Virus record (IMG/VR): IMGVR_UViG_3300047334_000160
Coordinates: 1 to 28,384 of that record
DNA: 28,384 nt
DNA from: a virus
Reading direction: 5' to 3' (one strand)
Shown: piece by piece, positions 1,152 to 21,664 of the stretch
Position numbering within the stretch: position 1 is the first letter of the stretch
Layout: each line of letters starts with the position of its first letter
Translations under genes and position numbers: made by a program
The notes under the pieces: model-generated
Seen by the model: only the letters and a program-made list of their open reading frames with translations
The model's database searches: none
What the model was told of the DNA's origin: nothing

Positions 1152-2437
1152 GAATACTATCTATCGATCCGTTTGGAGATGCTCTTGACTTGATGCTCCG
1201 GGCAAAAGAGTGCGGGCATCAAGTCAAGATGGCTTTGGGGCCGGACAAGCATTACTCACTTGTCGGCAAGGGCCTCGTTGATCGCGTCTTCGATTACAAG
1301 CCGCAACTCCACTGGGCCGATCTTATTTTCCTCTGTGATAACACCCGTCACTTGGATCACCTTGATGCCTTCCGGCGAGAGTATCCAAAGACCCTCATCT
1401 TCGGACCAACTAAGGGTACAGCTCTTTGGGAGACGGACCGTCTCACGGGGATGGAAATATTCAAGGAACATGGTATCGAGATTCCCTCTTGTAAACAGTT
1501 AAGCTCTTACGCTGAAGCTGTGGCTTATGTCAAAAAGAAAGACGCAAGGCTTGTCTGCAAACCGTGCGGAGACGCGGACAAGGCCCTGTCCTATTGCTCC
1601 AAATCACCCGAGGACATGCTGTTCATGCTTGATAAATGGCATCGCAGCGGGCAATTGAAAGCGAAATTCATTCTCCAGGACTTTGTTCCAGGCATCGAAT
1701 TTGCGGTATCTACCTACGTAGGCCCTCTCGGTTTTGCGGGAGGGTGGTTCGAGAACTTCGAACACAAGAAGCTCATGACCGGAGACAAAGGCCCTGCCAC
1801 AGGTGAAATGGGCACGACCATCCTCTGCACAGATAAGTCGAAGCTTGCCAACAAAGTCCTCAGACCGCTCGAGGACGCGCTTGTCAAGGCAGGCTATACC
1901 GGGTGCATTGACGTGAACTGTATCATCGACGATAAAGGACATCCATGGCCGCTCGAATTTACTAACCGGCCTGGCTATCCTGCGCTAGCTATCGAAACCG
2001 CTTTATTCCCAGAGGACCCTGTTCAATGGATGTACGACCTTCTTGCGGAGGGAGCAACACCGAAATTCACGAAGAACCAAGTGAGTCTTGGTGTATCCAT
2101 GTGTCTGCCGCCTTTCCCTTATCCGAACACGCCGGTAATGCCCGCGATTGGCATGCCGATTTTTGGGATGACTTCCTCAAACAGGAAACACCTGCACCCG
2201 TATCACATACAGAAGAGCACGGTGCCGGAGACGGAGTGGATGTCTGCGGCGGAGTACACTCTGGTCGTGACTGGTATGGCCGAGACAGTCTCAGGAGCAG
2301 CAAAGAAAGCGTACAAGACGATCGATCAATTGAACATCCCAGGCAGCCCGCTTTACCGGATAGACATTGGCAAGCCTCAACAGAAACAGCTTCCGGAGCT
2401 CCACTCCAAGGGGTATGCCCTCGCGTGGAACTATTAG
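1148..2437 (+). CDS. PurD-like ATP-grasp ligase
   Basis: A 429-residue protein with the order of an ATP-grasp enzyme resembling phosphoribosylamine-glycine ligase (PurD). The N-terminal part is Rossmann-like (MRILSIDPFGDALDLML). A nucleotide-binding Lys lies in RLVCKPCGDADKA (about K138), followed by QDFVPGIEF (177-185), then GDKGPATGEMG (212-222), which parallels the PurD signature GDxGPNTGGMG. The metal/ATP-site block LEFTNRPGYP (269-278) parallels EFNxRFGDPE. PurD ligates glycine to phosphoribosylamine in purine synthesis. The substituted residues in both signatures mean the acceptor here may differ, so I call the fold and not the reaction. Length matches PurD (about 420-430). The start overlaps the upstream stop (ATGA), and the end overlaps the next gene by 13 bp. 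Its place among virion genes, not replication genes, is odd. Confidence in the ATP-grasp fold is high; the substrate is unknown. Confidence 0.8.
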   Translation: MRILSIDPFGDALDLMLRAKECGHQVKMALGPDKHYSLVGKGLVDRVFDYKPQLHWADLIFLCDNTRHLDHLDAFRREYPKTLIFGPTKGTALWETDRLTGMEIFKEHGIEIPSCKQLSSYAEAVAYVKKKDARLVCKPCGDADKALSYCSKSPEDMLFMLDKWHRSGQLKAKFILQDFVPGIEFAVSTYVGPLGFAGGWFENFEHKKLMTGDKGPATGEMGTTILCTDKSKLANKVLRPLEDALVKAGYTGCIDVNCIIDDKGHPWPLEFTNRPGYPALAIETALFPEDPVQWMYDLLAEGATPKFTKNQVSLGVSMCLPPFPYPNTPVMPAIGMPIFGMTSSNRKHLHPYHIQKSTVPETEWMSAAEYTLVVTGMAETVSGAAKKAYKTIDQLNIPGSPLYRIDIGKPQQKQLPELHSKGYALAWNY

Positions 2438-3204: not shown

Positions 3205-3443
3205 TGAGGGGCCTTGCACATCTGAGGATTGGCGCCTTCCACAGCCGCGCGCGAGGCATCTGCTTGGATGCAGCGGCATAGTTTATAGTCTTTCAACGCT
3301 TGCGGCATGCGCTCTCCGCCGATGCGATCAAGCAACGCCTGTACAGCATCATAGCGCTGCAAACAGTTTGCCTTGATGTTGTCGAGCGTGTCTGCCTGCG
3401 CCGCGCCAGCTATCAATAAAGGTATGACTAACAGAATTCTCAT
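3201..3443 (-). CDS. small exported Cys-containing protein
   Basis: An 80-residue protein with a clear N-terminal signal peptide: MR, a hydrophobic core (ILLVIPLLIAG), then an AAQA site with likely cleavage before DTLDN. The mature part is about 62 residues with four cysteines (C27, C56, C58, C76), consistent with two disulfides in the periplasm. There is no lipobox, so it is not an outer-membrane lipoprotein spanin. Its start overlaps the primase-helicase stop (ATGA, 3440-3443) and its stop overlaps the next gene's ATG. A periplasmic role such as lysis help, superinfection exclusion or host-envelope modulation is possible; nothing in the sequence selects one. Confidence 0.65.
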   Translation of the reverse strand: MRILLVIPLLIAGAAQADTLDNIKANCLQRYDAVQALLDRIGGERMPQALKDYKLCRCIQADASRAAVEGANPQMCKAPQ

Positions 3444-6238
3444 TTCCTGATCCTCTCAAAATGAAGCACCTTATTCACTTCCATCGAAGCTTCTACATGG
3501 GCCTCGTGCGCTAGCTCTATACATACACAGAACGTTCTGCCGCTCTTTGGATAACTGGTCCCTTTAGATATACTCTCTTGACGCACGTATATCTTGTGCC
3601 CTGCCGCTATGGCATCGAGCTCAGCCTCACGGGACGATTTGTTGTATTGAGCTAGCCATTTCGCCCATATACCCTGCGGGATCATCAACCTGGAGCCTGT
3701 GTCTGTCTCCTCATACCGGCCAGAGATTTGATGAAGATACGGCTGCGGCAGCCCAGCGCCGACTAGGATCAGCTCACCGAATTTGGACCGGATGAAATCC
3801 TGAATAGGATCGCGGCTTTGTGAGACGCCCTTATCCTCTACGATCTGATCGAGCAACGTCTCTTCGGCCCGTGCGATGATCTTCTCCACGTCAAAGTCCA
3901 GCCTTGTCAGAGTTCGCAGGATTTTACCTCCGGCTTCCGCGCATGTGATCGCCCTCGCAGCGAACCTGGCCGAGTTTGGCAGGTTGAGCCGCGTCATCCG
4001 CTCTTGGTTATTGGCAAGCAGCTTCGCGGCAAGCGCATCCGGGTTCTCAAGATAGGCCTGCACAAGCTTTGGCCCAATCCAGCCATAGTTATTCGTAAGC
4101 GCAGCCCGTAATCTACCAGAATCTTCCTGCGACTTGTCAGGAGACAGGAAAGTCTCAAGCTGAAAGACACGTGCGCTAGGGCCTTCCGTAGCTCCCGTGG
4201 CTTGTCCTAACTTCGCACGAAGATCGAGATTTGATGTCGTCATGAGGAAGGTAGACCAGCCATCTCCTGTGGGGCGCCGTATCCCGTCACGGCTCAAGCG
4301 GGCTCGCGCGGCGCCGTCTGAGAAGGCCAGCACGCGCTGGCGGAGATCATCGTCTTTTTCCTTCTGCACCATCATCTCATCCCATGGGATAGGTAGATTA
4401 CCCGCCGTCTCCCATTGCGTAGCGTTTGCCAGCGCCGTCGAGTTCGACCAGTTTGCCAGTCCGCGCCAGGCTCCCCAGATCGACATGGCTGCAATAAGAG
4501 CTGTCGATTTGCCGTGTCCAGATCCGAACGACCTGAGCACAACAAGCATACCACCCTCGTCTGTCATGAGAGAGTGCAGCGGCGTCCCTGCGGAGAGGAG
4601 CACAAGGAACGCCGCTGCTTCCTGTCCGGGAGCAAGAATTTGGCTGAGGGAGGATCGCCATTCTGCTTCATTACCGGCTGGAGTGTAAAACTGTGCAAGC
4701 GGTTCGGTCATCCGTGAAAGGGCTGTCACCGTCTCTTCTACCTTGCCCTTACGGTATATCTTGTCGCCAAGCATAAAGCCTTGCCGGTTATCGACCCAGC
4801 CAAAACTTTTGCGCACCTGCTCGGCTCTTTTCGTTTCCATCATCATTCCCTTAGCAGCCCTTATGTAGGCGTCCGCAGCCTTCTCATTGTAGATATGCAC
4901 CCTACTAGTAAATTCCGATGATTTGGAGTTGCATAGTTGCGAGGGCAAGGAGAAAGTAGCCCATTCTCCGGTGCGGCCATCTCGTATCTCCCATGTGAAA
5001 TGCTGGGCCAGATCATCCTGAGACCAGCCAGTGCAGTGTAGCTCCTGGCAAATCTTAAACCATGTAGCTGGTTCTCCATCGACCGCTACACTTCTTGCGA
5101 CACACCCCTTCTCGATGTCGTATCCATCTGGAAGCTTGCGTTCCTTGACATCATCTCTTTGACCGCCTCCCCTATCCTGGGATAATTCTTCCGCAGGTTC
5201 TGGAAAGTCCTGGCTTCTCGTTGTGATTTTTCCAAGTGCGATCGGTGAGTTGACTGTTTGCTGGCAGCCATGGCAGCGCCCCTCCCCGATCTCTCGGAAC
5301 TTGTTACACGTGTAGGGGTTTTGGCCAGTTTCGCGGATGCGGCTAAGTCTGCCAGCTGTTTCTTCCTCTCTGTACCGAACCTCTTGCGAAGACCACGCAT
5401 GCGCAAATTTGTCGCCTTCGACGCACTTAGCCAGCACGGCAAGCAAACCTTGCCACGTCGGCTCTTCGATTCTCTCTCCTCGTTGCAGAGCGGACATCTG
5501 AAGACATCCTTCTGCGATTTTTTCGGCGTCAAACAACAGTCCTGAGTAGTCGTGCTCGAAAGGCGTCTCATTGGCTATTTCTCTTTGCCAGGATACACGG
5601 GGAGGTGCTTGCAGAAGTATCCCAGCTCCTCCGGATGCTTCTGGCAATATGTGTTGCACGTGCACGGCGGTGGCGAAGGCCTTGGGGGTGTAGCTTGGCG
5701 CGCTGGGTCGCACAAAACCGACCATTCCACCATTTTTTGAATTAACCGTTCCAATAACACGCGGTCCATTGCTGCTATCTGTTGTTCGCTGGGCATCAAC
5801 TCTGAGACCAGTATTCGCAAGGACCTGTCTGACATTGCGTGAAATTTCTCTCCAATCATCCCATCCTACCCCCTCTGTTAGTGTCCAGATCAGGTGCAGC
5901 CCTCGCCCCGAAGAAATAATTACCGGCGGTGGCAACCCTTTATATATGGCGGTGTTTATTGCATGTATGGCGGTCTCTTGGTCAGGATATGTATCTCCGA
6001 CATCGACATCCGCCCAGAAAGCGCGTGCCTCTCTGAACGAGCCCCCGCGCTTATCTTCGAAACTGGTCAGCGAGATATTCACATCTTTATGTTTGAGCGC
6101 CCAGCTCGCTACCTCTTCCAAGGTAGCGAGCCCCCGGCCTTTATTAGGCTGAAGGCCCTTAGAATAGGCGAAGTAAGGACCTTGCTTCGGCAATATCCTC
6201 CGGAGAAAGGTGAGCGTCTCTGATTTCCCTAATTGCAT
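3440..6238 (-). CDS. AEP-type primase fused to DUF927-like helicase
   Basis: A 932-residue replication protein. The N-terminal part is an archaeo-eukaryotic primase-type domain: the catalytic DxD lies in FWADVDVG (D77, D79), the nucleotide motif in SSGRGLHLIW (about 109-118), and a later motif in RTTDSSNGPRVIGTVNSKNG (about 151-170). A cysteine cluster (C311, C322, C325 in YTCNKF and RCHGC) may bind zinc. The C-terminal half resembles DUF927-type superfamily 3-like helicases, with Walker A GSGHGKST (572-579) and a Walker B-like PWDEM (618-622). It should prime and unwind at the replication fork. The primase domain begins close to the N-terminus, which supports the ATG at 6238 although it lies 80 bp inside the upstream HTH gene and its Shine-Dalgarno is weak. 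Plus-strand ORFs within it are shadows. Confidence 0.85.
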   Translation of the reverse strand: MQLGKSETLTFLRRILPKQGPYFAYSKGLQPNKGRGLATLEEVASWALKHKDVNISLTSFEDKRGGSFREARAFWADVDVGDTYPDQETAIHAINTAIYKGLPPPVIISSGRGLHLIWTLTEGVGWDDWREISRNVRQVLANTGLRVDAQRTTDSSNGPRVIGTVNSKNGGMVGFVRPSAPSYTPKAFATAVHVQHILPEASGGAGILLQAPPRVSWQREIANETPFEHDYSGLLFDAEKIAEGCLQMSALQRGERIEEPTWQGLLAVLAKCVEGDKFAHAWSSQEVRYREEETAGRLSRIRETGQNPYTCNKFREIGEGRCHGCQQTVNSPIALGKITTRSQDFPEPAEELSQDRGGGQRDDVKERKLPDGYDIEKGCVARSVAVDGEPATWFKICQELHCTGWSQDDLAQHFTWEIRDGRTGEWATFSLPSQLCNSKSSEFTSRVHIYNEKAADAYIRAAKGMMMETKRAEQVRKSFGWVDNRQGFMLGDKIYRKGKVEETVTALSRMTEPLAQFYTPAGNEAEWRSSLSQILAPGQEAAAFLVLLSAGTPLHSLMTDEGGMLVVLRSFGSGHGKSTALIAAMSIWGAWRGLANWSNSTALANATQWETAGNLPIPWDEMMVQKEKDDDLRQRVLAFSDGAARARLSRDGIRRPTGDGWSTFLMTTSNLDLRAKLGQATGATEGPSARVFQLETFLSPDKSQEDSGRLRAALTNNYGWIGPKLVQAYLENPDALAAKLLANNQERMTRLNLPNSARFAARAITCAEAGGKILRTLTRLDFDVEKIIARAEETLLDQIVEDKGVSQSRDPIQDFIRSKFGELILVGAGLPQPYLHQISGRYEETDTGSRLMIPQGIWAKWLAQYNKSSREAELDAIAAGHKIYVRQESISKGTSYPKSGRTFCVCIELAHEAHVEASMEVNKVLHFERIRK

Positions 6239-6494
6239 GTCGACGCCCCGGATAAGATCGTTTGCCTATGCCTGACGGCTGTTTTTTAAGTTCAGGTTCA
6301 GCCGCCTCAAGAGCGCGCAATAGAACATGTATAACATGCTCAAGTCCACGCCGGGGATTGGTTTTTCTGTGTAGCCAAAGGCACATGCAATTCTCGGAGA
6401 CGCCAAACCAGCTAGCCAAATCATAGCCGTTCAGGCCCCCTTTTTCTGCGGCTAGGGAAAGCCGCTCCGCAAAGTCTGAGGGCTTTCCCTGCAT
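6159..6494 (-). CDS. small helix-turn-helix (XRE/Cro-like) protein
   Basis: 111 residues. The N-terminal 50 residues fit a lambda-repressor-like helix-turn-helix: helix 1 FAERLSLAAEKG, helices 2-3 GYDLASWFGVSENCMCLWLH. The C-terminus is basic then acidic and has no recognisable domain. The gene starts 1 nt after the stop of the ssDNA-binding-like gene and overlaps the primase start by 80 bp, which could couple their translation. It might regulate the operon or act in replication initiation; the sequence does not say which. Confidence 0.6.
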   Translation of the reverse strand: MQGKPSDFAERLSLAAEKGGLNGYDLASWFGVSENCMCLWLHRKTNPRRGLEHVIHVLLRALEAAEPELKKQPSGIGKRSYPGRRHAIREIRDAHLSPEDIAEARSLLRLF

Positions 6495-10089: not shown

Positions 10090-10264
10090 TTCTTTTCCAT
10101 TTTACAATATGTCCTTGTGCATGAAGCTCGTCCAGCACACGATGCATGCTGCTTGGGCTGCACGCAAACATATCTGTTATATCTTTAACACTAACGCCAT
10201 TGTTATAGTATGTCAAAAGACGCCGTTTTTTCGTCTCGCTCCATGTATCTATCATAATCCTCAT
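10034..10264 (-). CDS. small HTH protein, copy 2 of a tandem pair
   Basis: About 76 residues from the ATG at 10264, which forms an ATGA overlap with the stop of its upstream neighbour. An in-frame ATG at 10273 would overlap more. The core WSETKKRRLLTYYNNGVSV then ITDMFACSPSSMHRVLDEL is a helix-turn-helix. It aligns along its length with the next gene upstream (shared pattern W-x4-KRRLL-x2-Y-N-x-GV and LxELxAxGxIVK). The C-terminus is basic. The last 56 bp are shared with the VRR-NUC gene. Likely a DNA-binding regulator or replication accessory. Confidence 0.6.
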   Translation of the reverse strand: MRIMIDTWSETKKRRLLTYYNNGVSVKDITDMFACSPSSMHRVLDELHAQGHIVKWKRNDPRGTRKERNSSGAEEA

Positions 10265-10527
10265 TTTACCCACACCCTCCTTGCTTTACAACATCCGCGC
10301 CTATCTTTTCTAGGTTTTACAATATAACCGGCAGCCAACAGCTCTTCTAATATGTTATATATGATGCTAGCTCCGCAGCCGAAACTGTCTTTTATCGTGG
10401 ACATAGGCACGCCTTGATTATAGGCATGTAACAGCCTGCGCTTACGGTAGTCATCCCATTCCTTATGTTTCGGTTTGTAGTTATATGGCAGCCCATTCTC
10501 TAAGCGTTCCCGTTCCCTGGTCCTCAT
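10261..10527 (-). CDS. small HTH protein, copy 1 of a tandem pair
   Basis: 88 residues. After a charged N-terminus (MRTRERERLENG) comes a helix-turn-helix core, WDDYRKRRLLHAYNQGVPMS followed by TIKDSFGCGASIIYNILEEL. This closely parallels the downstream gene, so the two are tandem paralogues that have diverged. The tail is Arg/Lys/Cys-rich (DRRGCCKARRVWVK). Both ends are coupled by ATGA overlaps, to DNA polymerase (10524-10527) and to copy 2 (10261-10264). Its target is not evident. Confidence 0.6.
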   Translation of the reverse strand: MRTRERERLENGLPYNYKPKHKEWDDYRKRRLLHAYNQGVPMSTIKDSFGCGASIIYNILEELLAAGYIVKPRKDRRGCCKARRVWVK

Positions 10528-12347
10528 TTATAGGTCTCCGATACCGAGCCCTCACCTTTCATAGGCATGTTAGGCAGCCATTCAGGTGATACACTCATAA
10601 GCGCCTCTATGTAACTGCATACGTCCTGCGCCTGGCTCGACGGTATAACATAGGTCAGATCGTCATGTGTCATCATGGCAGGCCGGAACCCTATCTCTTT
10701 TTTGACCTTGCGCATGATCTCCCGCATGTATGTGGCCTCAAGCATCTGCGCCAAGTCTGCTGCGAATGACCCGCCCCATATTTTCGACCGGCCATGCCGC
10801 CCGTTATTATACCACTGCCTCTCGTGCTGATCCCACTCGATATTATACGGACAGTGTAAACCGTTAGGCAGGACAAGCGCGCCGCGGCAAACCGTAATAG
10901 GAAACCAATCAGGCCAGCCAGATGGCATCCCTTCCCAGCTATAGGTCATGAGAGCATAGAGCGCACTATCATTCGCTGCCCATAGATCGACGACCCGTGG
11001 ATGAGCCTTGCGGTAAGCAGGCATAGCGCGATCCATCATCTCCTCCGTCGCCTCGATCTGCCTGCCTATGCAGTTCTGCCTGAAACGCCGCGTTCCTTGC
11101 CCGAACCCGCCGCCAAGGACCGTGGTCTTAGCGAAGGTCCGCTCGATCTTATCCTTTTTCGTGATGGTCCGTCCGAACAAATACTGGCTGCCAAACTCGC
11201 TATAAATGTCTTTGTCCTGGCGCAAGTCTTCGAGCTTATCCTCTTGGCCTGCCAGTGCGCAAACCAAACGGTATTGGATTTGAGCGGCGTCCACGTTCAC
11301 AATGGCATAGCCTGGCGGCGCCATGAGCGCGCGCCGGAGCCGCGTCTCAGGATCGGATTGTGCTCCCGGCAGGTTCTGCGGGTTCCAATCGCGTCCGGAC
11401 CAACGCGTCGTATGTGTGCCGATATAATTGAGCGGGATAGGCATCGGCCCGCGCCGCGCGCAATCCGCCATCTTGCCAGCGCGCGTCTCAGTCAACGCCG
11501 AACTGGCATCAAGGCGCGCCCGCGCCAAGTCACCCGCGCGGCCCTCTTGCGCCGCCAGCTCCTGCATATAAGGATCTGTGGCCGCGATCGCTGGATTATC
11601 CTTGAGCTTGCCGGGTTTTCTAGGCACCTCCTCACCACACTCATCGAGCAAGGCAACGAACTTGGCAACCGATTTGAGCTCTTTCTCGGTCACGCCCAGC
11701 GCCTCGCGCGCAGCCAGCTTCCTTTCCGCCTCCTCCCTAGCAAGCTTGTCGAGCGCAATAACATCACCAATGACGACCGGCTCACTGAACATCCGCACTG
11801 TCATGTCGATAATATCGAGCTCGCTCCTCGGGAACACTTTGAACTGCTCTCGCGCGATAGCAGCCGTCAGACGGACATCCTGCTCGCACCCTGCCACAAG
11901 CTCGTCTTGCCCTTCTTTGGACATGCCGTTCCAGCGCAACCCCCGGAACGCATCATAGGGCACAGTCTTTTGAGACAGCCCATATCGCTCCGCCATCGCC
12001 TTCAAACTGGCCGATTTACCAGGCCCTGCTATCGCCCGCTCCATCGACATGGTGCAAATGATCTTATAAGGCGAGACGCCATACCGTAGAGACAGAATGC
12101 CAGCATCGAAGGCCGCATTCTGTAATATCAGAATAATACGCTCCCAAGGCATCCTCGCGATACCACGCGCAATTTCATCGGGACCCCTAAGGGTCCTGAT
12201 TTCCTTTCCGCTATAATGCTGTAATGATAGTGTAAGAGCCTCAAACCTGTCATCCCGGATATAGGCCTCTGTCGTCATCTTCCTGAGACTATACTCACTG
12301 TCGTAGTACGTCTCAAAATCGGCGACAAGAATGATCTTATCAGTCAT
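10524..12347 (-). CDS. family A DNA polymerase with 3'-5' exonuclease domain
   Basis: 607 residues, a size typical of phage replicative PolA-type enzymes. Exonuclease motifs: ExoI ADFET (D10, E12), ExoII NAAFD (N77-D81), ExoIII CEQD (D157). The usual Tyr four residues before D157 is Gly153. Polymerase: THTTRWSG and NPQNLP (311-327), motif A NVDAAQIQYR (D353, with Gln358 where most family members have the Glu steric gate), motif B RTFAKTTVLGGGFG (R403, K407, F415), motif C MTHDDL (H561, D562, D563). Both metal-binding polymerase aspartates are kept. The Shine-Dalgarno AGGTGAGGT overlaps the stop of the tiny upstream gene. The stop overlaps the HTH gene by 4 bp. Confidence 0.92.
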   Translation of the reverse strand: MTDKIILVADFETYYDSEYSLRKMTTEAYIRDDRFEALTLSLQHYSGKEIRTLRGPDEIARGIARMPWERIILILQNAAFDAGILSLRYGVSPYKIICTMSMERAIAGPGKSASLKAMAERYGLSQKTVPYDAFRGLRWNGMSKEGQDELVAGCEQDVRLTAAIAREQFKVFPRSELDIIDMTVRMFSEPVVIGDVIALDKLAREEAERKLAAREALGVTEKELKSVAKFVALLDECGEEVPRKPGKLKDNPAIAATDPYMQELAAQEGRAGDLARARLDASSALTETRAGKMADCARRGPMPIPLNYIGTHTTRWSGRDWNPQNLPGAQSDPETRLRRALMAPPGYAIVNVDAAQIQYRLVCALAGQEDKLEDLRQDKDIYSEFGSQYLFGRTITKKDKIERTFAKTTVLGGGFGQGTRRFRQNCIGRQIEATEEMMDRAMPAYRKAHPRVVDLWAANDSALYALMTYSWEGMPSGWPDWFPITVCRGALVLPNGLHCPYNIEWDQHERQWYNNGRHGRSKIWGGSFAADLAQMLEATYMREIMRKVKKEIGFRPAMMTHDDLTYVIPSSQAQDVCSYIEALMSVSPEWLPNMPMKGEGSVSETYK

Positions 12348-12758: not shown

Positions 12759-13088
12759 TCAGATAGTATCTGGCTTGCTCAAGTTCGCTCCGGCCAGATC
12801 ATCTATGGTCATGACTGCCTGACGCAAGTCAGCCCCGAAGAGGTTCGCCCCTAAGAGGTTCGCCCCGGACAGGTTCGCCCAGCGAAAATCAACCCCGAAG
12901 AGGTTCGCGCCATGCAAGTCAGCCCCGCGCAGATCAGCCCCGCGCAGATCAGCCCCGAAGAGGTCCGCCTCGGACAGGTTCGCCTCGCTTAAGTTCGCCC
13001 CGCTTAAGTTCGCCCATCGCAAGTAAGCTTTGGACAAGTCAGCACCGGATAGATCGTCCGGATAAGTATGGCCGTGTATAAGTCTCAT
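12759..13088 (-). CDS. pentapeptide-repeat protein 1 (109 aa)
   Basis: The shortest of four paralogues. It opens with MRLIHGHTYPDDLSGADLS, the signature N-terminus of this cluster, then about 18 A(D/N)LxX pentapeptides, which fold as a right-handed quadrilateral beta-helix of about four to five coils. Residues 96-109 (DDLAGANLSKPDTI) cap the helix. No C-terminal domain. Start supported by GAGAGGGAAGGA on the minus strand just before the ATG. Pentapeptide proteins such as MfpA and Qnr mimic DNA and bind gyrase; whether this one does is unknown. Its DNA is a run of imperfect 15-bp repeats. Confidence 0.8.
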   Translation of the reverse strand: MRLIHGHTYPDDLSGADLSKAYLRWANLSGANLSEANLSEADLFGADLRGADLRGADLHGANLFGVDFRWANLSGANLLGANLFGADLRQAVMTIDDLAGANLSKPDTI

Positions 13089-13111
13089 GGTCCTTCCCTC
13101 TCAACATAATG

Positions 13112-13843
13112 TTAGATAACAGCCCCGTCCAAATCAGCCCCCTCCAAGAGAACACCTCGCAAGTCAGCATAGCGCAAGTCGGTATTGCTCAAGTCGGCAT
13201 TGCGCAAGTCGGCATCGTGCAAAGAGACACCGCGCAAGTCAGCCCAGCGCAAATAAGCCACGAGCAATTTGGCTCCTTGCAAGATAGCTCCGGACAAGTC
13301 AGCTCCGAATAGGTTCGTGCCATACAAGTAGGCACCGCGCAAGTCAGCCCAGCGCAAATTAGCCCCGAACAAGTTAGCTACGGACAAGTCGGCACCGCGC
13401 AAGTCAGCCATACGCAAGTCGGCACCGCGCAAGTCAGCATAGCGCAAATTAACCTCGAGCAAGTTAGCTCCGGCCAAGTCAGCCCCGGACAAGTCAGCCC
13501 CGGACAAGTCAGCCCCGTACAATTTCGCACCGCGTAATTTAGCTCCGGACAAGTTAGCCCCGGACAAGGCAACCCCGTACAAGTCAGCTTTGCGCAAGGC
13601 AGCCATACGCAAGTCAACTTTGCGTAAGTCAGCCATACGCACGTCAGCTTTGCGCAAGTCCACCCCGGACAAGTTAGCCCCGTAAAAGTCAGCTCCGCGC
13701 AAGTCAGCCCCGGACAAGTTAGCCCCGGACAAGTTAGCCCCGGACAAGTACTCTTTGGACAAGTTAGCCCCGGACAAGTCCGCTTTGGACAAGTCCGCTT
13801 TGGATAGATCGTCAGGGTACTCCGTACCGTTTATAAGTCTCAT
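13112..13843 (-). CDS. pentapeptide-repeat protein 2 (243 aa)
   Basis: MRLINGTEYPDDLSKADLS is followed by about 46 pentapeptides to the C-terminus, roughly eleven beta-helix coils. It contains more varied repeats than the other copies (RMADLRKVDLRMAALRK, SNTDLRYADLRG), with many Arg at the variable position. That suggests it is older or under different selection. No separate C-terminal domain; it ends EGADLDGAVI. A GAGAGGGAAGGA Shine-Dalgarno precedes the ATG, and the 38-bp palindromic element lies 26-63 bp upstream. The long ORFs on the opposite strand are by-products of the repeat. Confidence 0.85.
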   Translation of the reverse strand: MRLINGTEYPDDLSKADLSKADLSGANLSKEYLSGANLSGANLSGADLRGADFYGANLSGVDLRKADVRMADLRKVDLRMAALRKADLYGVALSGANLSGAKLRGAKLYGADLSGADLSGADLAGANLLEVNLRYADLRGADLRMADLRGADLSVANLFGANLRWADLRGAYLYGTNLFGADLSGAILQGAKLLVAYLRWADLRGVSLHDADLRNADLSNTDLRYADLRGVLLEGADLDGAVI

Positions 13844-13868
13844 GGTCCTTCCCTCTCAGTAGGCTCGT

Positions 13869-13906
13869 CAGTGCCGGTTCTCCCGGACAGACGCGGCTAG
13901 CCGCGT
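13869..13906 (-). repeat. 38-bp palindromic leader element, copy a
   Basis: On the plus strand it runs CAGTGCCGGTTCTCCCGGAC followed by AGACGCGGCTAGCCGCGT. It contains the perfect 16-bp palindrome ACGCGGCTAGCCGCGT (13891-13906) and a CCGG-N5-CCGG mini-hairpin. On the minus strand it lies in the 5' leader of PPR gene 2 and directly after the 56-aa gene. No U-run follows, so it is not a standard intrinsic terminator. It may be an operator or an mRNA structure. Confidence 0.8.
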
Positions 13907-13912
13907 TTCGCC

Positions 13913-14083
13913 TTATTTGGGTGCGCAGTATACGACTGTATCAGTCTCCCTATTATAACTGGCTTGTGTCTGGAGCCCGTTCATAGCCTGTGCGCACGTT
14001 GCCTGGCTGTTGAACGTAACAGATGAGGCTGCTACAGAGCCGTTATGGTTATACATCAGGATTATCATTACCCACTCAATCAT
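13913..14083 (-). CDS. 56-residue protein with hydrophobic N-terminus and CxxA motif
   Basis: Short gene. The ATG at 14083 has GGAG six nt upstream and overlaps the 39-aa gene by 8 bp; TAA is at 13913-13915. The peptide starts MIEWVMIILMYNHNGS (a short hydrophobic segment) and continues with VTFNSQATCAQAMNGL, ending TDTVVYCAPK. The pattern F-x-S-x2-x-C-x2-A and a terminal YCxPK occurs in many small phage and bacterial proteins, where the two Cys probably pair. Function unknown. Well-spaced ribosome site and coding-like sequence support it. Confidence 0.6.
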   Translation of the reverse strand: MIEWVMIILMYNHNGSVAASSVTFNSQATCAQAMNGLQTQASYNRETDTVVYCAPK

Positions 14084-14195
14084 CTAAATCTCCGTTGTTA
14101 TCTCTATCATAGTCCCTATCATCCCAGAGTGCCTTGAGGCTGAACACGATCATAGCCCCAAGATTCGCCAGTAATATCACACCCAATATAAACAT
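14076..14195 (-). CDS. 39-residue membrane peptide with acidic tail
   Basis: Short gene starting at 14195, 1 nt after the stop of the 210-aa gene, with AGGGAG seven nt before the ATG. The peptide is MFILGVILLANLGAMIVF (one transmembrane helix) followed by SLKALWDDRDYDRDNNGDLD, a strongly acidic cytoplasmic or periplasmic tail. TGA is at 14076-14078, overlapping the 56-aa gene start. Hydrophobic helix plus acidic tail is a non-random composition. Role unknown. Confidence 0.6.
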   Translation of the reverse strand: MFILGVILLANLGAMIVFSLKALWDDRDYDRDNNGDLDD

Positions 14196-14196
14196 A

Positions 14197-14829
14197 TTAC
14201 GCTCCCTGTCTGCTCAATGCTTCGATCTGCGGTTTCAGCCTCGTCACAATCTCTTGAGGGATGTCCGCGCCGTACTTAGCCTCAAGCAGGCTAAGAACCT
14301 CCCGCAAGGATGCCCGGCCACACGGCTTATCGAGCATCCATACCGGATATGCCCTGATGTCCGTCTCTATCGTCTGCAAGCGCGGTGCCGAAACTGTCTG
14401 CGTTTCTTGTATGGCTTCATCAGGCGTTGTTACTATTACTGGTCTATTACGCTCTCTAGCTTTCTTACGTTCGGCCATGATCGAGAATTTGTCCGCGAAC
14501 GCCCTCTGCTTATCCGATAGCTCGCGATATCCGGACGTCACCTCAACACAAAACTCGCGCCATTTCTCTTCGTCGATCTTAGCCATGTCGCCCAGAGGCC
14601 TGGCGATATCGAGATCGATCATGACCTTACCACCAGCACTGTCTGCACGCATAACCTCAGGAATAGGCCGCTTGGACTGCGTCCGCCACTGCACGAACAA
14701 GTTCTCGCTGACCAGGAAGTCACGGGCAACGAACTGTTCCCAAGCCGCCTTGCGATAACCATCACGCACAATGACGACGCCACATGCCCATTGGAAATAT
14801 TCCGTCAATTTATTATTTGTTCTACGCAT
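14197..14829 (-). CDS. hypothetical phage protein (210 aa)
   Basis: 210 residues that I cannot assign. Start supported by GGAGG seven nt upstream. The N-terminal third has aromatic and basic residues (YFQWACGVVIVRDGYRKAAW, VARDFLVSENLFVQW); the middle is helical and charged (KWREFCVEVTSGYRELSDKQ, MAERKKARERNR); the C-terminal part (SLREVLSLLEAKYGADIPQE) looks like a small helical domain. It could be a nucleic-acid-binding or regulatory protein. It sits between PPR genes and starts a sub-cluster of tiny genes downstream. Confidence 0.55.
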   Translation of the reverse strand: MRRTNNKLTEYFQWACGVVIVRDGYRKAAWEQFVARDFLVSENLFVQWRTQSKRPIPEVMRADSAGGKVMIDLDIARPLGDMAKIDEEKWREFCVEVTSGYRELSDKQRAFADKFSIMAERKKARERNRPVIVTTPDEAIQETQTVSAPRLQTIETDIRAYPVWMLDKPCGRASLREVLSLLEAKYGADIPQEIVTRLKPQIEALSRQGA

Positions 14830-14842
14830 ATCACTACCTCCG

Positions 14843-15031
14843 TCACGGCCAAATCCTCATTGGATAAAGTCTAGCATGCCTGGCATAATACACCGATGCT
14901 ATTATCTTTTCCCGCTCGTACCAAGCTTTTATGCGCTCATTGCTCTTGACAAATTGCTGCGCAAGCAATGCCCAGTGATAATCTATTACATGAGCATTAT
15001 ACTCTATTGGGTTGTGTTCAATAAGTTTCAT
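14843..15031 (-). CDS. small hypothetical protein (62 aa)
   Basis: 62 residues beginning MKLIEHNPIEYNAHVIDYHW, aromatic- and His-rich, ending with a basic stretch (YYARHARLYPMRIWP). AGGAG lies six nt before the ATG, and the ATG overlaps the upstream stop as ATGA (15028-15031). No known domain. Probably translated with the 87-aa gene. Confidence 0.6.
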   Translation of the reverse strand: MKLIEHNPIEYNAHVIDYHWALLAQQFVKSNERIKAWYEREKIIASVYYARHARLYPMRIWP

Positions 15032-15291
15032 TTCGTTCTCCTAGCTGTTTTAGCCTCTGTTTTGCGGGCATGCTCTTTCCAGAACTGCTTTTCCAGGTAA
15101 TGCTCGCGCATAAACAAGAAGTGCCGTCGTGTGTAGCAGTGCTCATCATGCTGCTTTGGCGCGGCCTTATAGGCGGCCACCGACTCGGCAATCTGTTTAG
15201 CTTGCCAGTGCATATATCTGATTTCATTCGGCCGTAGCGGTTCCTTCGATAAACAAGAGTTTCCTCCCTGAGGTGGAACAGCATATTTCAT
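15028..15291 (-). CDS. small basic hypothetical protein (87 aa)
   Basis: About 87 residues from MKYAVPPQGGNSCLSKEPLR at 15291. This start is chosen because it makes an ATGA overlap with the stop of PPR gene 3; an in-frame ATG at 15354 would overlap that gene by 67 bp. The protein has a helical middle (HWQAKQIAESVAAYKAAP) and a Lys/Arg-rich C-terminus (KEHARKTEAKTARRTK) and may bind nucleic acid. Also coupled to the 62-aa gene downstream. Confidence 0.6.
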   Translation of the reverse strand: MKYAVPPQGGNSCLSKEPLRPNEIRYMHWQAKQIAESVAAYKAAPKQHDEHCYTRRHFLFMREHYLEKQFWKEHARKTEAKTARRTK

Positions 15292-16187
15292 GAATATGCC
15301 TCCGCTTCGCCGCGGGTAAGGAAAAAGTGAATTCCCGCCCCGCACTCGTTCCACCGGTCCTCATCAAATGGCTGTGTAGGCCGCACTGTCTCGCCTACTT
15401 TATATATGAAACTAGCATCATGCTTGGCGAGGCCCTCGCCCTCCAAGACAACAGCATACTCAGCGCGGCATTTGCGCCCTGTAGCATTGTGGCGTTTCGC
15501 ATCTGAGGGAATGAGAAGTTTACAGATAACCCCACTCATAAGCACTTTGTAGCCTATAATATCACCCTCTGGCGTTATGAGAGTGGTGTTATACACCGTC
15601 TGAGGTATGTTCATAGCCCCGGATAGTTTAGCCCCGGACAAGTTGGTACCGGACAAGTTGGTATCGCTCAAGTCAGCACATTGCAAGTTAGCACCGGCCA
15701 AGTTAGCACCGGACAGGCTAGCCCCGCCCAGGTTAGCCCAGTGCAATTTGGCATCGCTCAAGTCAGCCCAGGACAAGTACGCTTTGGACAGGCTAGCCCT
15801 GCGCAAGTTAGCCCATTGCAAGTTAGCACCGGCCAAGTTAGCACCGCTCAATTTGGCATCGCTCAAGTCAGCCCAGCGCAATTTGGCATCGCTCAAGTCC
15901 GCTTTGGACAAGTTAGCACCGGACAAGTCAGCCCCGCCCAGGTTAGCCCAGTGCAATTTGGCACCGCTCAAGTTCGCTTTGGACAAGTCAGCCCCGGACA
16001 AGTCAGCCCCGGACAAGTTAGCCTCGCACAGATCGGCACCGCTCAAGTTCGCTTTGGACAAGTCAGCCCCGGACAAGTCAGCCCAGGACAAGTACGCTTT
16101 GGACAAATCAGCCCAAGACAAGTACGCTTTGGACAAGTCAGCTTTGGATAGATCGTCAGGGTACTCCTTACCATTTATAAGTCTCAT
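15288..16187 (-). CDS. pentapeptide-repeat protein 3 with C-terminal DUF5758-type domain
   Basis: 299 residues. MRLINGKEYPDDLSKADLS opens about 36 pentapeptides (residues about 12-190). Then comes a separate ~108-residue domain (192-299) starting MNIPQTVYNTTLITPEGDII, with the blocks ATGRKCRAEYAVVLEGEG and WNECGAGIHFFLTRGEAEAY. I recognise this as the DUF5758-like domain that follows pentapeptide repeats in many phage proteins; its function is not known. The domain is about 85% identical to that of protein 4. GAGAGGGAAGGA precedes the ATG and the 38-bp element lies 26-63 bp upstream. The stop overlaps the 87-aa gene. Confidence 0.88.
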   Translation of the reverse strand: MRLINGKEYPDDLSKADLSKAYLSWADLSKAYLSWADLSGADLSKANLSGADLCEANLSGADLSGADLSKANLSGAKLHWANLGGADLSGANLSKADLSDAKLRWADLSDAKLSGANLAGANLQWANLRRASLSKAYLSWADLSDAKLHWANLGGASLSGANLAGANLQCADLSDTNLSGTNLSGAKLSGAMNIPQTVYNTTLITPEGDIIGYKVLMSGVICKLLIPSDAKRHNATGRKCRAEYAVVLEGEGLAKHDASFIYKVGETVRPTQPFDEDRWNECGAGIHFFLTRGEAEAYS

Positions 16188-16212
16188 GGTCCTTCCCTCT
16201 CAATAGGCTCGT

Positions 16213-16250
16213 CAGTGCCGGTTCTCCCGGACAGACGCGGCTAGCCGCGT
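16213..16250 (-). repeat. 38-bp palindromic leader element, copy b
   Basis: Identical to copy a over the 38 bp, including the perfect palindrome ACGCGGCTAGCCGCGT at 16235-16250. It lies between the stop of PPR gene 4 (16262) and the start of PPR gene 3 (16187). The flanking bases (CTCGT before and TTCGCCTTAT after) are also the same as at copy a, so the shared segment is longer than the palindrome. Confidence 0.82.
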
Positions 16251-16261
16251 TTCGCCTTATC

Positions 16262-17611
16262 TCAATATGCCTCCGCTTCGCCGCGGGTAAGGAAAAAGTG
16301 AATGCCTGGTGCGCACTCGTTCCACCGGTTCTCATCGAATGGTTGTGTAGGCCGTACTGTTTCGCCTATTTTATATATTGAATTGGCATCATGCGCGGAG
16401 CGGCCTTCGCCCTCCAAGACAACAGCATATTCGGCGCGGCATTTGCGCCCTGTTGCGTTGTGACGTTTCGCACCGGCGGGAATAAGTAGTTTGCATATAA
16501 CACCGTTAGCCAGCTTCTTATAACCTATAATGTCCCCCTCCGGCGTTATGAGAGTGGTGTTATACACCGTTTGAGGTATGTTCATAGCCCAGTTCAAGCA
16601 GGCACCGGACAGGTTAGCCCAGCGCAAATCGGCACCGGACAAGTTAGCCAAGCTCAAGCAGGCACCGGACAAGTCCGCTTTGGACAAGTTTGCCCCTGAC
16701 AAGCCGGTCTTGGACAGGTTAGTCCCGGACAAGTCCGCTTTGGACAAGTCCGCTTTGGACAGGTTAGTCCCGGACAAGTCCGCTTTGGACAAGTCCGCTT
16801 TGGACAAGTTCGCTTTGGACAAGTTCGCCAAGCTCAAGCAGGCACCGGACAAGTTCGCTTTGGACAGGTTAGCCCAGCGCAAGCCGGTCTTGGACAAGTC
16901 CGCTTTGGACAAGTTTGCCCCTGACAAGTACGCTTTGGACAGGTTAGCCCCGGACAAGTCAGCCTTGGACAAGTCAGCCTCGCGCAAGTCAGCCCCGTAC
17001 AAGTACGCACCACGTAATTTAGCTCCGGACAAGTTCGCTTTGGACAAGTCAGCCCCGGACAAGTTAGCCCCGGACAAGTTAGCCCCGGACAAGTCAGCAC
17101 CGGACAAATTAGCCCCGGACAAGTTAGCCCCGGACAATTCAGTCCCGTACAAGTTCGATTTGGACAAGTTCGCTTTGGACAAGTTAGCCCCGGACAAGTC
17201 AGCCCCGGACAAGTCAGCCCCGTACAAGTCCGCTTTGGACAGGTTAGCCCCGGACAAGTCAGTCCCGGACAAGTCAGTCCCGGACAAGTTAGCCCCGGAC
17301 AAGTCAGCCCCGGACAAGTTAGCCACTGACAAGTTAGCCCCGGACAAGTTTGCCCCTGACAAGTCCGCTTTGGACAAGTCCGATTTGGACAAGTCCGATT
17401 TGGACAAGTCAGCCCTGGACAAGTCAGCCCCGGACAAGTCATCCCCGTACAAGTTAGCCCCGGACAAGTCAGCCCCGGACAAGTCAGCCCCGTACAATTC
17501 AGTCCCGGACAAGTTAGCCCCGGACAAGTCAGCCCCGGACAAGTCATCCCCGGACAAGTCCGCTCCCGACAGATCGTCAGGGTACTCCTTACCATTTATT
17601 ACTCTTGGCAT
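16262..17611 (-). CDS. pentapeptide-repeat protein 4 (449 aa) with C-terminal DUF5758-type domain
   Basis: The largest paralogue. I start it at 17611 (MPRVINGKEYPDDLSGADLS) because GAGAGGGA sits five nt before this ATG; an in-frame ATG at 17632 lies in the palindromic leader. About 66 pentapeptides run to about residue 341, predicting roughly 16-17 beta-helix coils. Residues 343-449 are the DUF5758-like domain (MNIPQTVYNTTLITPEGDII to HFFLTRGEAEAY). The coding DNA is a dense array of two main 15-bp units (plus strand CCCCGGACAAGTCAG and CTTTGGACAAGTCCG). Copy number is therefore likely to vary by slippage or recombination, and assembly errors are possible. The 371-codon ORF on the opposite strand is a repeat artefact. 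Confidence 0.88.
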   Translation of the reverse strand: MPRVINGKEYPDDLSGADLSGDDLSGADLSGANLSGTELYGADLSGADLSGANLYGDDLSGADLSRADLSKSDLSKSDLSKADLSGANLSGANLSVANLSGADLSGANLSGTDLSGTDLSGANLSKADLYGADLSGADLSGANLSKANLSKSNLYGTELSGANLSGANLSGADLSGANLSGANLSGADLSKANLSGAKLRGAYLYGADLREADLSKADLSGANLSKAYLSGANLSKADLSKTGLRWANLSKANLSGACLSLANLSKANLSKADLSKADLSGTNLSKADLSKADLSGTNLSKTGLSGANLSKADLSGACLSLANLSGADLRWANLSGACLNWAMNIPQTVYNTTLITPEGDIIGYKKLANGVICKLLIPAGAKRHNATGRKCRAEYAVVLEGEGRSAHDANSIYKIGETVRPTQPFDENRWNECAPGIHFFLTRGEAEAY

Positions 17612-17632
17612 ATTCCCTCTCAACAGGCTCAT

Positions 17633-17708
17633 CAGTGCCGGTTCTCCCGGACAGACGCGGATAGCCGCGTCAGTGCCGGTTCTCCCGGACTGACACGGCT
17701 ATCCGCGT
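17633..17708 (-). repeat. Two tandem copies of the 38-bp element forming a long inverted repeat
   Basis: Unit c is 17633-17670 and unit d is 17671-17708, head to tail. Small changes in the palindromes (GATAGCC in c, GGCTATC in d) make 17656-17679 and 17685-17707 complementary. The result is a ~23-bp stem with one mismatch and one bulge around a 5-nt loop (TTCTC). It lies in the leader of PPR gene 4, directly after the 113-aa gene. No T-run follows on the minus strand. Confidence 0.8.
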
Positions 17709-18404: not shown

Positions 18405-18427
18405 GTGTAACACGTCAAGTATTACAC
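18405..18427. promoter_or_regulatory. operator-like 23-bp dyad, copy A
   Basis: GTGTAA-N11-TTACAC with inner sequence CACGTCAAGTA. The arms match over 10 of 11 positions around a central C. It lies between the 84-aa and 54-aa genes. Its centre is 33 bp (about three helical turns) from copy B, which suits cooperative binding on one DNA face. Confidence 0.65.
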
Positions 18428-18437
18428 TAAGAGTAAT

Positions 18438-18460
18438 ATGTAATACGTCAAGTGTTACAT
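18438..18460. promoter_or_regulatory. operator-like 23-bp dyad, copy B
   Basis: ATGTAA-N11-TTACAT with inner sequence TACGTCAAGTG, the same core as copies A and C. It overlaps the stop codon of the 84-aa gene. With copy A it forms a two-site array. Confidence 0.65.
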
Positions 18461-18702
18461 ATTACTATTCTGTTGCAGTTCGACCCAGGAATTGGGTCGG
18501 TTGGAAGTGGATGATAGAGGAAATACACCCCTGCCATGCAGTGTTCCTGCTGGCCGTTTATATTATTTGTCTTAAACACGGGCTTCCGCCCGCCGGAGTC
18601 TGGCTTTACGAAAAAGCCAGCTCCTTCCGGGCGCTGCACAAGCAGCCCCTTGATGTGCACATACGCCTTCCCGAAATCTGAAGAGCGCTGAATGAAAGCC
18701 AT
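18448..18702 (-). CDS. first gene of the early operon, 84-aa hypothetical protein
   Basis: 84 residues from MAFIQRSSDFGKAYVHIKGL at 18702, preceded by GAGGAG. An in-frame ATG at 18765 lies inside the promoter and is rejected. It is mixed alpha/beta with Gly/Lys-rich loops (VKPDSGGRKPVFKTNNINGQ) and ends NRIVICNT. No family recognised. As the promoter-proximal gene it should be the first and most abundant early product. Confidence 0.6.
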   Translation of the reverse strand: MAFIQRSSDFGKAYVHIKGLLVQRPEGAGFFVKPDSGGRKPVFKTNNINGQQEHCMAGVYFLYHPLPTDPIPGSNCNRIVICNT

Positions 18703-18736
18703 ATTATTTTCTCCTCTGTTTGGATTTGATAAGTGT

Positions 18737-18765
18737 AATATAATAGCACTGGTGTAATACGTCAA
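18737..18765 (-). promoter_or_regulatory. early sigma70-type promoter
   Basis: On the minus strand -35 TTGACG (18765-18760) is followed after 17 bp by TATATT (18742-18737), each five of six consensus matches. Predicted start is near 18730, with GAGGAG and the ATG at 18702 following. The -35 box lies inside the dyad of copy C, so a bound repressor would block RNA polymerase. Confidence 0.65.
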
Positions 18766-18774
18766 GTGTTATTT
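18752..18774. promoter_or_regulatory. operator-like 23-bp dyad, copy C, over the early promoter
   Basis: GTGTAATACGTCAAGTGTTA then TTT. The left half and core match copies A and B; the right half is degenerate (TTATTT instead of TTACAT). It covers the -35 box and part of the spacer of the early promoter. Confidence 0.6.
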
Positions 18775-19049
18775 TGACTTATTTTCGTGGCCGGTCACGA
18801 ACTCGCATGTGCTTGGAGGCGTTTGAGTGTAATTTGCAGAGGCAAAATACGAGCTAAGTGTAATAAGAGATCGCTAAGCTGTATATAAATATGCGATTCG
18901 GTGTGTAATTTTTAAGTCGCCGCAAATATCTTTTTGTATACAGCTTGTAGAGGGAGATTGCAAAAATAATACTTTTAAGCTGTATTTTAAAAAGTAAAAA
19001 GGTGGCCTTTTTTGGCATTTTGAAAAACAGAGACGTAAGTTTTTTTTAG

Positions 19050-19172
19050 AAAAGTGTAGTAGGAAATTCATTTTTTATAATACATTCTATAATATATAAT
19101 ATATTACACTGATAGTGATATTAGGTGTATTATGAAAAGTATTATAAAAAATGAATTTCGTACTACACTTTT
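19050..19172. repeat. 34-bp inverted repeat with 55-bp AT-rich spacer
   Basis: Arms 19050-19083 and 19139-19172 are complementary at 33 of 34 positions. The arm begins AAAAGTGTAGTAGGAAATTC and ends TTTTTTATAATAC; the single mismatch is the second G of AGG. Each arm carries one TGTAGTA motif. The spacer contains TATTACAC and a small CACT-GAT-AGTG dyad, so the whole could form a cruciform or a paired protein-binding site. Confidence 0.85.
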
Positions 19173-19489
19173 TGCCATTTTTTAAAATTTCGCGAGGGTT
19201 ATATTTTTTTAGAGACTCACTAATTGTATATATATATATAGATAGAAAAGTATAGTAGATTTTGTTTTCCCTTTAATTTCAATGTGTTAGCCACAATTTC
19301 CGGTTTTTGGCAGTGTAGTAAATCCTTTATAAACGAGGTATAAGTTTGTTACATGTAAAAAGCGATTTTTAAAAATTTAAGTGTAACACGGTTTTCACTT
19401 CTCGCATATTTTTATACAGCAAGCCAGTTTACATGTAACACTACTACAGACATACTATTCACGGCAGCTCGGTCTCGCGATTGAGGTTT

Positions 19490-19514
19490 TGTAGTATGTA
19501 ATGTGTAGTATGTA
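19490..19514. repeat. direct repeat GTAGTATGTA x2
   Basis: GTAGTATGTA occurs at 19491-19500 and again at 19505-19514, separated by ATGT. Both copies contain the GTAGTA core found in the inverted repeat and elsewhere in this region. It may be an iteron pair. Confidence 0.5.
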
Positions 19515-19687
19515 GCAGAGGAAGTTGGGGTAAACGGGTTGGCGGTCGGATTGGTGAAAATAAACTACCCCCGCTCTAAAACCGCGTCTAATTTTCAAAA
19601 TCATGTATTACACTGTTAGTATCACCGGCGGCCCAAACCCTAATTGCCTGACAGCAAAGATTATGATACTCAAAGTTTGGAGGCCGC

Positions 19688-21664
19688 ATGAGTCACGATA
19701 AACAACTGATCGACATCGCTGTTGAGTTCAACAACAACCCTTGCCTTGCGCATCGTGTTATATTTCCACATAGACATAGTGCCAAGACATCTGCCGCGCA
19801 CGACGAGCTGATACGGTTGTTTCATGATCAAAGCGTGCAGAATGTCATAGGGTTGTGCTTTCGCGGTTTCGGTAAATCCACACTTGCTGAGGAAACCGTC
19901 GTGCTGGAAGCGGCCAGCGGGCTCGTAAAGAACGTGATTGTGCTGGGGGAGTCTTACACAAGAGCCTGCGAGCGCCTCAGATCGATCCGGCGAGAGCTGG
20001 AGAACAATGAGTGGATCGCCGCCATCTATGGCCCGCAAATGGGGGACACCTGGTCTGAGTCAAAGCTCGTGCTTGCCAATGGCACTGCCATAACCGCGCA
20101 AGGACAAGGCATGGCTTTGCGCGGGATGAAACACGACACAAGCAGACCAGATCTTATTTTCATTGACGATCTTGAAAGCGAAGAGACTGTCGGCACTCCA
20201 GCGGCCCGGGAAAAGCTGAGCGACTGGTTCTACAAGGACCTGATGCCGGTCAATATGCGCGCCCGCAAGCTCATAACGGCGACGCCGCTCGACCCAGAAG
20301 CGCTTGTCGTAAAGCTGTCCAAGGACCCTGCTTATAAGACTTTGAAAGTGCCGATTGATTACATTGATGAGAACGGAGTGCGGCAGGCCACGTGGCCAGA
20401 ACAGTTTCCCCTGGAGATCATTGACGATCTAGAGGACAAATTCAGACGTGCCGGAAAACAAGCGGCGTTCGCGCAGGAATACAGGGTGCAGGCTGTAGAC
20501 CCTGCTACAAAATTGTTCAGGCATAGTATGTTTAAATGCGATCCATCGCTCAAACATACATGGGAGCCTGTCTACATAGTTTATGATCCTGCCAGGACTA
20601 ACAAGACAACAAGCGCAACAACAGGCTATGTAGTTGCTTCATGGGTAGGACGCAAGCTAATCATATGGGAAGCGGGTGGTGAACGGTGGATGCCATCCGA
20701 GATGATAGAGCACATGTTCGCGATGGAAAGAAAGTATGAGCCTATCGTTATAGGAGTGGAAAAGGACGGGTTGTCGGAATGGATCGAGGAGCCTATCAGG
20801 CAGGAACAGATCAAGCGGAGCCTCGTCATCCCTGTCAAGGCCATCAAGGCGCCGCGCGACAAATTGAACTTCATTCAGAGTTTGCAGCCATTGATGGTCT
20901 CTGGTTCGATAGTGTTTGCCGGAGACCCTGGTGATCAATGGGTTGTAGATACCATCAATCAGTTTTTGTCATATCCATCCGGGGCCATAGACGTGCCGAA
21001 CGCGATGGCGTATCTTCTGAACGATCAAGTGAAGCAAGGGACTCCTGTTTATGATGACGCTAGCCAAGCACATATCGCTGAACATCTGGCTCTACGGCCT
21101 GGGCCTGTCCTGCTTGGAGTTAATGCTTCAGCGTTTGGTTCGACAGCTATATTGTGCCAGTACAAAAACTCGATATTGACAATACTGAACTCATGGGCTT
21201 TACCCGGGGATGCGGGACAAACCATGAGGCCCATCCTTGAAGAAGCGCAACTCTACGCCGGTCGATCTCTCACGGTTAGTGCCCCTCCGGATAACTTCGA
21301 TACCAGGAACTCCCTGGGACTGCGTGCAGCCCTGCGCGGCCTTGCAGAGCTACGCAGAGGTGGTGATGCGGTGCGGGGCCGAGAAGTTATACGAGGGTTG
21401 TTCCGATCGGAGGTGGCTGGTGCCGCTCGATTGCTTATCGGGCCCGACGCCACCTGGGCAAGACGCGCCATATTTGGAGGTTACGCGCGTCTGGATGGAA
21501 AGGTAGACCCGGCGCCAGGGCTCTACGCGACCCTTATGGAAGGGCTGGAGAGCATTATGGCTGGGGTGAGCCAGCAGTCTGAGGATACGCAGCAGATGAT
21601 TGCCGTAGACCCGCGCAGCGGGATGCGGTATCAGACGGCGGCATTGGAGAGAGGGCGTCGATGA
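19688..21664 (+). CDS. terL: terminase large subunit with extra C-terminal domain
   Basis: 658 residues. ATPase: Walker A FRGFGKST (58-65), Walker B LIFIDDLE (156-163), coupling motif TATP (197-200). Nuclease (RNase H-like): VYDPA (D300), GVEKDG (E358) and GAIDVPNAMAYLL (D435). It packages phage DNA into proheads by ATP-driven translocation and cleaves the concatemer. About 200 residues follow the usual end of the nuclease (from about 452) and look like a second, degenerate RNase H-type fold (GPVLLGVNASAFGSTAILCQ, TILNSWALPGDAG). Start supported by GGAGG four nt before the ATG. The stop overlaps the next gene (ATGA). No small terminase gene is recognised next to it. Confidence 0.9.
   Translation: MSHDKQLIDIAVEFNNNPCLAHRVIFPHRHSAKTSAAHDELIRLFHDQSVQNVIGLCFRGFGKSTLAEETVVLEAASGLVKNVIVLGESYTRACERLRSIRRELENNEWIAAIYGPQMGDTWSESKLVLANGTAITAQGQGMALRGMKHDTSRPDLIFIDDLESEETVGTPAAREKLSDWFYKDLMPVNMRARKLITATPLDPEALVVKLSKDPAYKTLKVPIDYIDENGVRQATWPEQFPLEIIDDLEDKFRRAGKQAAFAQEYRVQAVDPATKLFRHSMFKCDPSLKHTWEPVYIVYDPARTNKTTSATTGYVVASWVGRKLIIWEAGGERWMPSEMIEHMFAMERKYEPIVIGVEKDGLSEWIEEPIRQEQIKRSLVIPVKAIKAPRDKLNFIQSLQPLMVSGSIVFAGDPGDQWVVDTINQFLSYPSGAIDVPNAMAYLLNDQVKQGTPVYDDASQAHIAEHLALRPGPVLLGVNASAFGSTAILCQYKNSILTILNSWALPGDAGQTMRPILEEAQLYAGRSLTVSAPPDNFDTRNSLGLRAALRGLAELRRGGDAVRGREVIRGLFRSEVAGAARLLIGPDATWARRAIFGGYARLDGKVDPAPGLYATLMEGLESIMAGVSQQSEDTQQMIAVDPRSGMRYQTAALERGRR

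Follow-up and report, generated by a model that had tools for sequence, protein, structure and literature searches.

The putative origin of the crenarchaeal plasmid pRN1 is a stem-loop that is required for replication and whose fold, but not its sequence, is conserved; the stem measures 21 nt, carries a large loop and adjoins the replication gene (PMC4234260). In RSF1010, the ssiA and ssiB hairpins are bound by the AEP primase RepB' as a priming site; each ssi spans ~40 nt, made up of a short hairpin and a single-strand tail that carries a GTG start motif (PMC4434180). A fold that persists while its sequence changes usually marks a functional hairpin, and similarity searches miss such elements. 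To our knowledge, hairpins of this kind have seldom been described in the control regions of dsDNA phages. The new finding here, from three viral lineages so far, is that pairing is conserved while sequence is not, with operator-like sites as anchors.

The window analysed here is a linear IMG/VR virus record of 28,384 bp. Its sequence confirms what the first-pass annotation had described, namely inverted-repeat arms at 19050-19083 and 19139-19172 that are complementary at 33 of 34 positions across a 55-bp spacer. In fact, the symmetry carries on inward, giving arms of 58 nt (19050-19107 on the plus strand, 19115-19172 on the minus strand) that are 83% complementary and separated by 7 nt. The next-longest close inverted repeat in the 28.4-kb window is much shorter, at 25 nt, and the ungapped score is 33, whereas 40 dinucleotide shuffles of this AT-rich region reach at most 12 (mean 9.1, sd 1.0). 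A GTGTAGTA site forms the left foot of the stem (19054-19061, plus strand) and recurs inverted at the right foot (19161-19168, minus strand); it is kept as GTGTAGTA in the related virus L006 and as GTGTAGCA in L007. The apex, CACTGATAGTGATATTAGGTGTATTAT (19107-19133), is conserved in L006 and partly in L007. No intrinsic terminator was called at the palindrome.

Relatives gathered by the terminase large subunit (TerL) and by control-region patterns were the same five virus contigs, with TerL 95-99% identical. The comparison covers five lineages: the window, L006, L007, L004 and L005/L009, L009 being the virus of L005. In three of these (window, L006 and L007) a palindrome spanning 111-123 bp lies at exactly the same place, with largely different arm sequences. 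The outer pairs are intact at 37 of 42 positions in the window, 42 of 42 in L006 and 33 of 42 in L007; the whole L006 palindrome is paired at 44 of 44 positions around a 33-nt centre. In pairwise comparisons over the outer 30 pairs, the lineages differ at 12, 18 and 21 positions, of which 11, 12 and 16, respectively, are paired in both lineages (permutation p ≤ 0.0001); most changes are double and compensatory. Arm identity between lineages is 26-57% ungapped over 42 nt, or 49-68% gapped, compared with 88-91% in the left flank and 71-75% at the 4-fold sites of TerL. The arm sequence is at least as free as synonymous sites, with complementarity retained, and the only conserved sequence is that of the stem ends, plus the apex in the window and L006. 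Because the letters differ between relatives while the two halves stay complementary, evolution seems to preserve the hairpin and not its sequence. The first-pass annotation had taken a lack of conservation of the arms in close relatives as speaking against its reading of the palindrome; such a lack misleads here, since the arm sequence is indeed not conserved while the pairing is, in three lineages.

Several other origins of the palindrome could be discarded. Independent contigs carry the same palindrome (L003/L011, nearly the same virus in another record, 98.7% over 11.2 kb) or an equivalent one (L006, L007), which rules out an assembly artefact. Transposon or MITE ends are ruled out by a position and flanks that are alike in three lineages with arms that differ, and no target duplication is visible by eye. 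The examined DNA of the distant PolA relatives L015-L020 holds no comparable palindrome, phage and plasmid records yielded no DNA resembling the control region, and no copies were found in bacterial genomes. A 16-base pattern, AAAGTTGGGGTAAACG, also matches other viral contigs; none of the ten inspected has such a palindrome, which makes the pattern unspecific.

Pairing could also persist without function if template switching during replication keeps perfecting a quasi-palindrome, so that the arms drift together and selection, for operator function, acts on the end sites alone. Template switching is documented to make imperfect inverted repeats perfect (PMC3820800), the arms here diverge beyond 4-fold degenerate sites, as an elevated local mutation rate predicts, and two lineages have no palindrome at all. 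The conserved end sites, however, and their covariation with the promoters (see below) do not follow from such a process. Long palindromes are usually unstable in bacteria, and yet this one occupies the same place in three lineages. We therefore regard maintenance by template switching alone as improbable; were it the case, the locus would be a natural record of that process.

The palindrome lies in a gene-poor region of ~18.70-19.69 kb. Leftward of it, on the minus strand, are a Family A DNA polymerase (PolA, 10524-12347), an SNF2/DEAD-type helicase, a DUF927 primase-helicase and pentapeptide-repeat genes, and rightward are TerL (19688-21664, plus strand) and the portal gene; the gene-lacking stretch between divergent operons reported earlier is thus borne out. 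Cumulative GC skew reaches its minimum near 18.5 kb, so that the suggested skew check does give a turn in the control region, although gene orientation confounds the support that this lends. At the left end, the first plus-strand gene shows a slightly negative third-position skew; a leftward fork would produce this, but the signal is weak and likewise confounded by orientation. An outer inverted motif is formed by TCGCATATTTATATACAGC on this strand (18878-18896, left member, minus orientation) and TCGCATATTTTTATACAGC (19402-19420, right member, plus), which is 95% complementary to it, and similar pairs occur in relatives. We note that this outward-facing TTTTTATACAGC pair, which frames the control region, is also present in the palindrome-less L009 (11743-11774 and 12170-12201).

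Other features were recorded elsewhere in these genomes. Four pentapeptide-repeat genes, two with a C-terminal DUF5758, form one early operon (12759-17632, minus strand), and their number and arrangement vary among relatives. A GC-rich 25-nt hairpin upstream of one of them (17655-17708) is repeated before two more (16203-16257 and 13860-13917). Near the left end, an ATP-grasp gene (1148-2437, plus strand) is phosphoribosylglycinamide synthetase-like, with GARS_A above its cut-off.

To the left of the palindrome, a non-coding flank (18805-19045) containing ACAGAGACGTAAGTTTTTTT is 88-91% identical in L006 and L007. Two leftward ORFs over this flank were rejected as genes: one of 54 aa (18854-19018) is interrupted by in-frame stops in both relatives, and the similarity of one of 65 aa is what 88-91% DNA identity gives. 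The hairpins themselves fold far better than shuffles, both as RNA and as DNA, and of the two strands it is the plus strand that folds better in all three palindromes. A rightward plus-strand transcript over the 250-bp flank and the palindrome might fold into a long double-stranded hairpin and act as a non-coding RNA, an RNase III site or a regulator of neighbouring transcripts. Covarying stem pairs with conserved ends and apex are the classical RNA pattern, the flank is conserved yet non-coding, a plus-strand stem within it keeps G-U pairs, and the plus-strand mismatches in the palindromes are G-T 13 times and A-C twice. That excess, however, does no more than hint at plus-strand RNA or single-strand DNA, because the G+T-biased composition of the strand already predicts ~60% G-T and some mismatch positions are common between lineages; moreover, plus-strand single-stranded DNA would give the same signal. 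No promoter was detected that would drive transcription across the palindrome, and Rfam gave no match above gathering score. An RNA function is, in our judgement, unlikely.

The stem ends tie the palindrome to a second feature of the region. The TGTAGTA motif pointed out in the first-pass annotation is real but part of something wider: as GTGTARTA it has ten copies in the window, against 0.69 expected, and all ten fall within 18420-19613. The control regions of the five lineages (5.6 kb) contain the core AGTGTAA 39 times, compared with 11 copies in 58 kb elsewhere. The AGTGTARYA field of the window (18405-19615) contains 14 GTGTAA/GTGTAG cores, at 18405, 18422, 18733, 18752, 18827, 18858, 18903, 19054, 19104, 19163, 19313, 19381, 19503 and 19608. 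A sigma-70-type early leftward promoter, TTGACG-17-TATATT (18737-18765, minus strand), carries a GTGTAATA site over its -10 (18733-18740) and another, 19 bp away, in its spacer (18752-18759), and a like promoter with sites placed likewise is present in five of five viruses. The site recurs upstream of TerL, and iteron-like tandem arrays occur in L006 (18-bp) and L004 (16/21-bp). Since the sites overlap promoters in five viruses and form tandem arrays, a virus regulator very probably binds AGTGTARYA; two weakly HTH-like early proteins, encoded at 6159-6494 and 10261-10527, are candidates.

The stem ends, GTGTAG[T/C]A, match this site. In L007, moreover, the variant GTGTAGCA occupies both arms and both promoter-like site pairs, and one of these pairs also satisfies the strict promoter pattern; GTGTAGTA occurs nowhere in the contig. 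The shared variant ties the palindrome ends to the protein that would read the promoters. These observations could be explained by regulation alone, with one repressor or activator binding the stem-foot sites, the apex and the promoter sites, and a cruciform or looped DNA deciding between early transcription to the left and late transcription to the right, with no direct part in replication. The placement of sites on the early promoters and upstream of TerL and the variant common to the arms and promoters of L007 speak for this, as does a gene that separates the operator-bearing promoter from the control region in the two palindrome-less lineages. Binding at the stem ends, however, leaves the covariation of 20-35 bp of non-site stem unexplained, and the 33-nt non-palindromic centre of L006 would make extrusion from duplex DNA harder, whereas a single-stranded substrate would fit it better. 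A purely regulatory element is thus possible but rather doubtful.

No palindrome was found in the control regions of L004 and L005/L009. L009 nevertheless shares the replication genes of the window (PolA 91%, helicase 95%, primase 84%), and L004 has 97% identical TerL, its contig being too short for replication genes. An obligatory origin would be expected in all close relatives with shared replication genes, and on sequence grounds the palindrome is not one, because L009 has the same PolA, helicase and primase without it. The earlier proposal of a control or origin role therefore divides: a control region is supported by a site that overlaps the early promoter, iteron-like arrays in relatives and the turn in skew, while the palindrome as the origin itself is not supported, L009 and L004 having none.

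At the map place of the palindrome, these two relatives carry a gene for a charged, coiled-coil-like protein of 343-366 aa, located between the operator-bearing promoter and the control region (L009:10655-11686 and L004:1842-2942, both minus strand). The protein has no family match, and the gene is absent from the examined DNA of the other viruses. The part of the control region common to all five lineages is the right half. It includes CCTTTAATTTCAATGTGTTAG (19270-19290, plus strand), which adjoins an AT-rich tract at ~19220-19247, and a block upstream of TerL, AAGTTGGGGTAAACG...CTCTAAAACCGCG...TTTTCAAAATCATG (19522-19605, plus strand), also written GTTGGGGTAAACGGG...AAACTACCCCCGC...CTCTAAAACCGCG; the latter is possibly, as a guess, a packaging site. 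Because all five lineages have them, the palindrome-less ones included, the TerL-upstream block and the AT-rich tract that adjoins CCTTTAATTTCAATGTGTTAG are better candidates for a core function than the palindrome. A perfect DnaA box, TTATCCACA, directly follows the conserved TTCAATGTGTTAG block in one virus only (L006:4488-4496).

The primase-helicase (3440-6238, minus strand) combines AEP-like motifs, DxD (77-79) and SGxGxH (110-115), with a DUF927 helicase-type domain. Both motifs are invariant across the homologues, three of which match the PriS and Cch1 models. The structure model (pLDDT 43) is too poor to use, and the AEP assignment draws on the motifs and profile matches. We tentatively propose, as a plausible reading held with less than even confidence, that the palindrome is a hairpin-forming element in a composite early-promoter and replication-control region, serving as a single-stranded loading or priming site for the AEP-type primase-helicase. 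A virus-encoded DNA-binding protein would read AGTGTARYA at the promoters, the iteron-like arrays and the hairpin foot; upon opening of the AT-rich region, the palindrome would fold as a single-strand hairpin; and this hairpin, as a structure-specific loading or priming site, would couple early regulation to replication by the AEP-type primase-helicase and PolA. We favour a hairpin that is loaded or primed as a single strand because AEP start sites at hairpins are known from pRN1 and RSF1010. Since two lineages have replaced it, the palindrome would be a modular aid and not an origin that the virus cannot do without. The conserved pairing and the shared site are observed; every further step of this mechanism is our inference. 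The broader claim, that a hairpin with free stem sequence but preserved pairing, bound at its foot by the protein that controls the early promoters, links early transcription to the priming of replication as a modular structural switch in a tailed dsDNA phage and gave way to a coiled-coil gene in some relatives, is a long shot at present.

Comparison with known systems places the proposed hairpin among several types of element. Protelomerase sites of N15-like phages are long palindromes that need a symmetrical centre. The palindrome described here is ruled out as such a target because its centre is not palindromic: the window has a 7-nt loop flanked by mismatched inner arms, and L006 has 33 unpaired nt. 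A protelomerase gene was not seen either. Iteron-type plasmid and phage regions differ in that the window has no single regular array and no identified initiator gene, and has a long hairpin in addition. Template-switch quasi-palindromes resemble the locus as imperfect inverted repeats whose arms grow more alike, but leave the conserved operator ends and the position in three lineages unexplained (PMC3820800). With RSF1010 ssi, the palindrome would share the use of a hairpin as an AEP-type priming site, although at >110 bp it is considerably longer (PMC4434180). The likeness to pRN1 extends further, to a ~100-bp hairpin in non-coding DNA, a fold kept without sequence, here in three lineages, and an AEP primase-helicase encoded by the element, recognised in this virus by motifs and PriS/Cch1 matches and not by fold (PMC4234260). 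In contrast to pRN1, the stem is 42-58 nt long, lies ~13 kb from the primase gene, has operator-like ends, is missing in some relatives and is known from sequence alone; its absence in L009 argues against a strict need for the stem-loop in replication. If the hairpin does act as a loading site for the AEP primase-helicase, initiation in the style of pRN1 and RSF1010 would extend to tailed phages.
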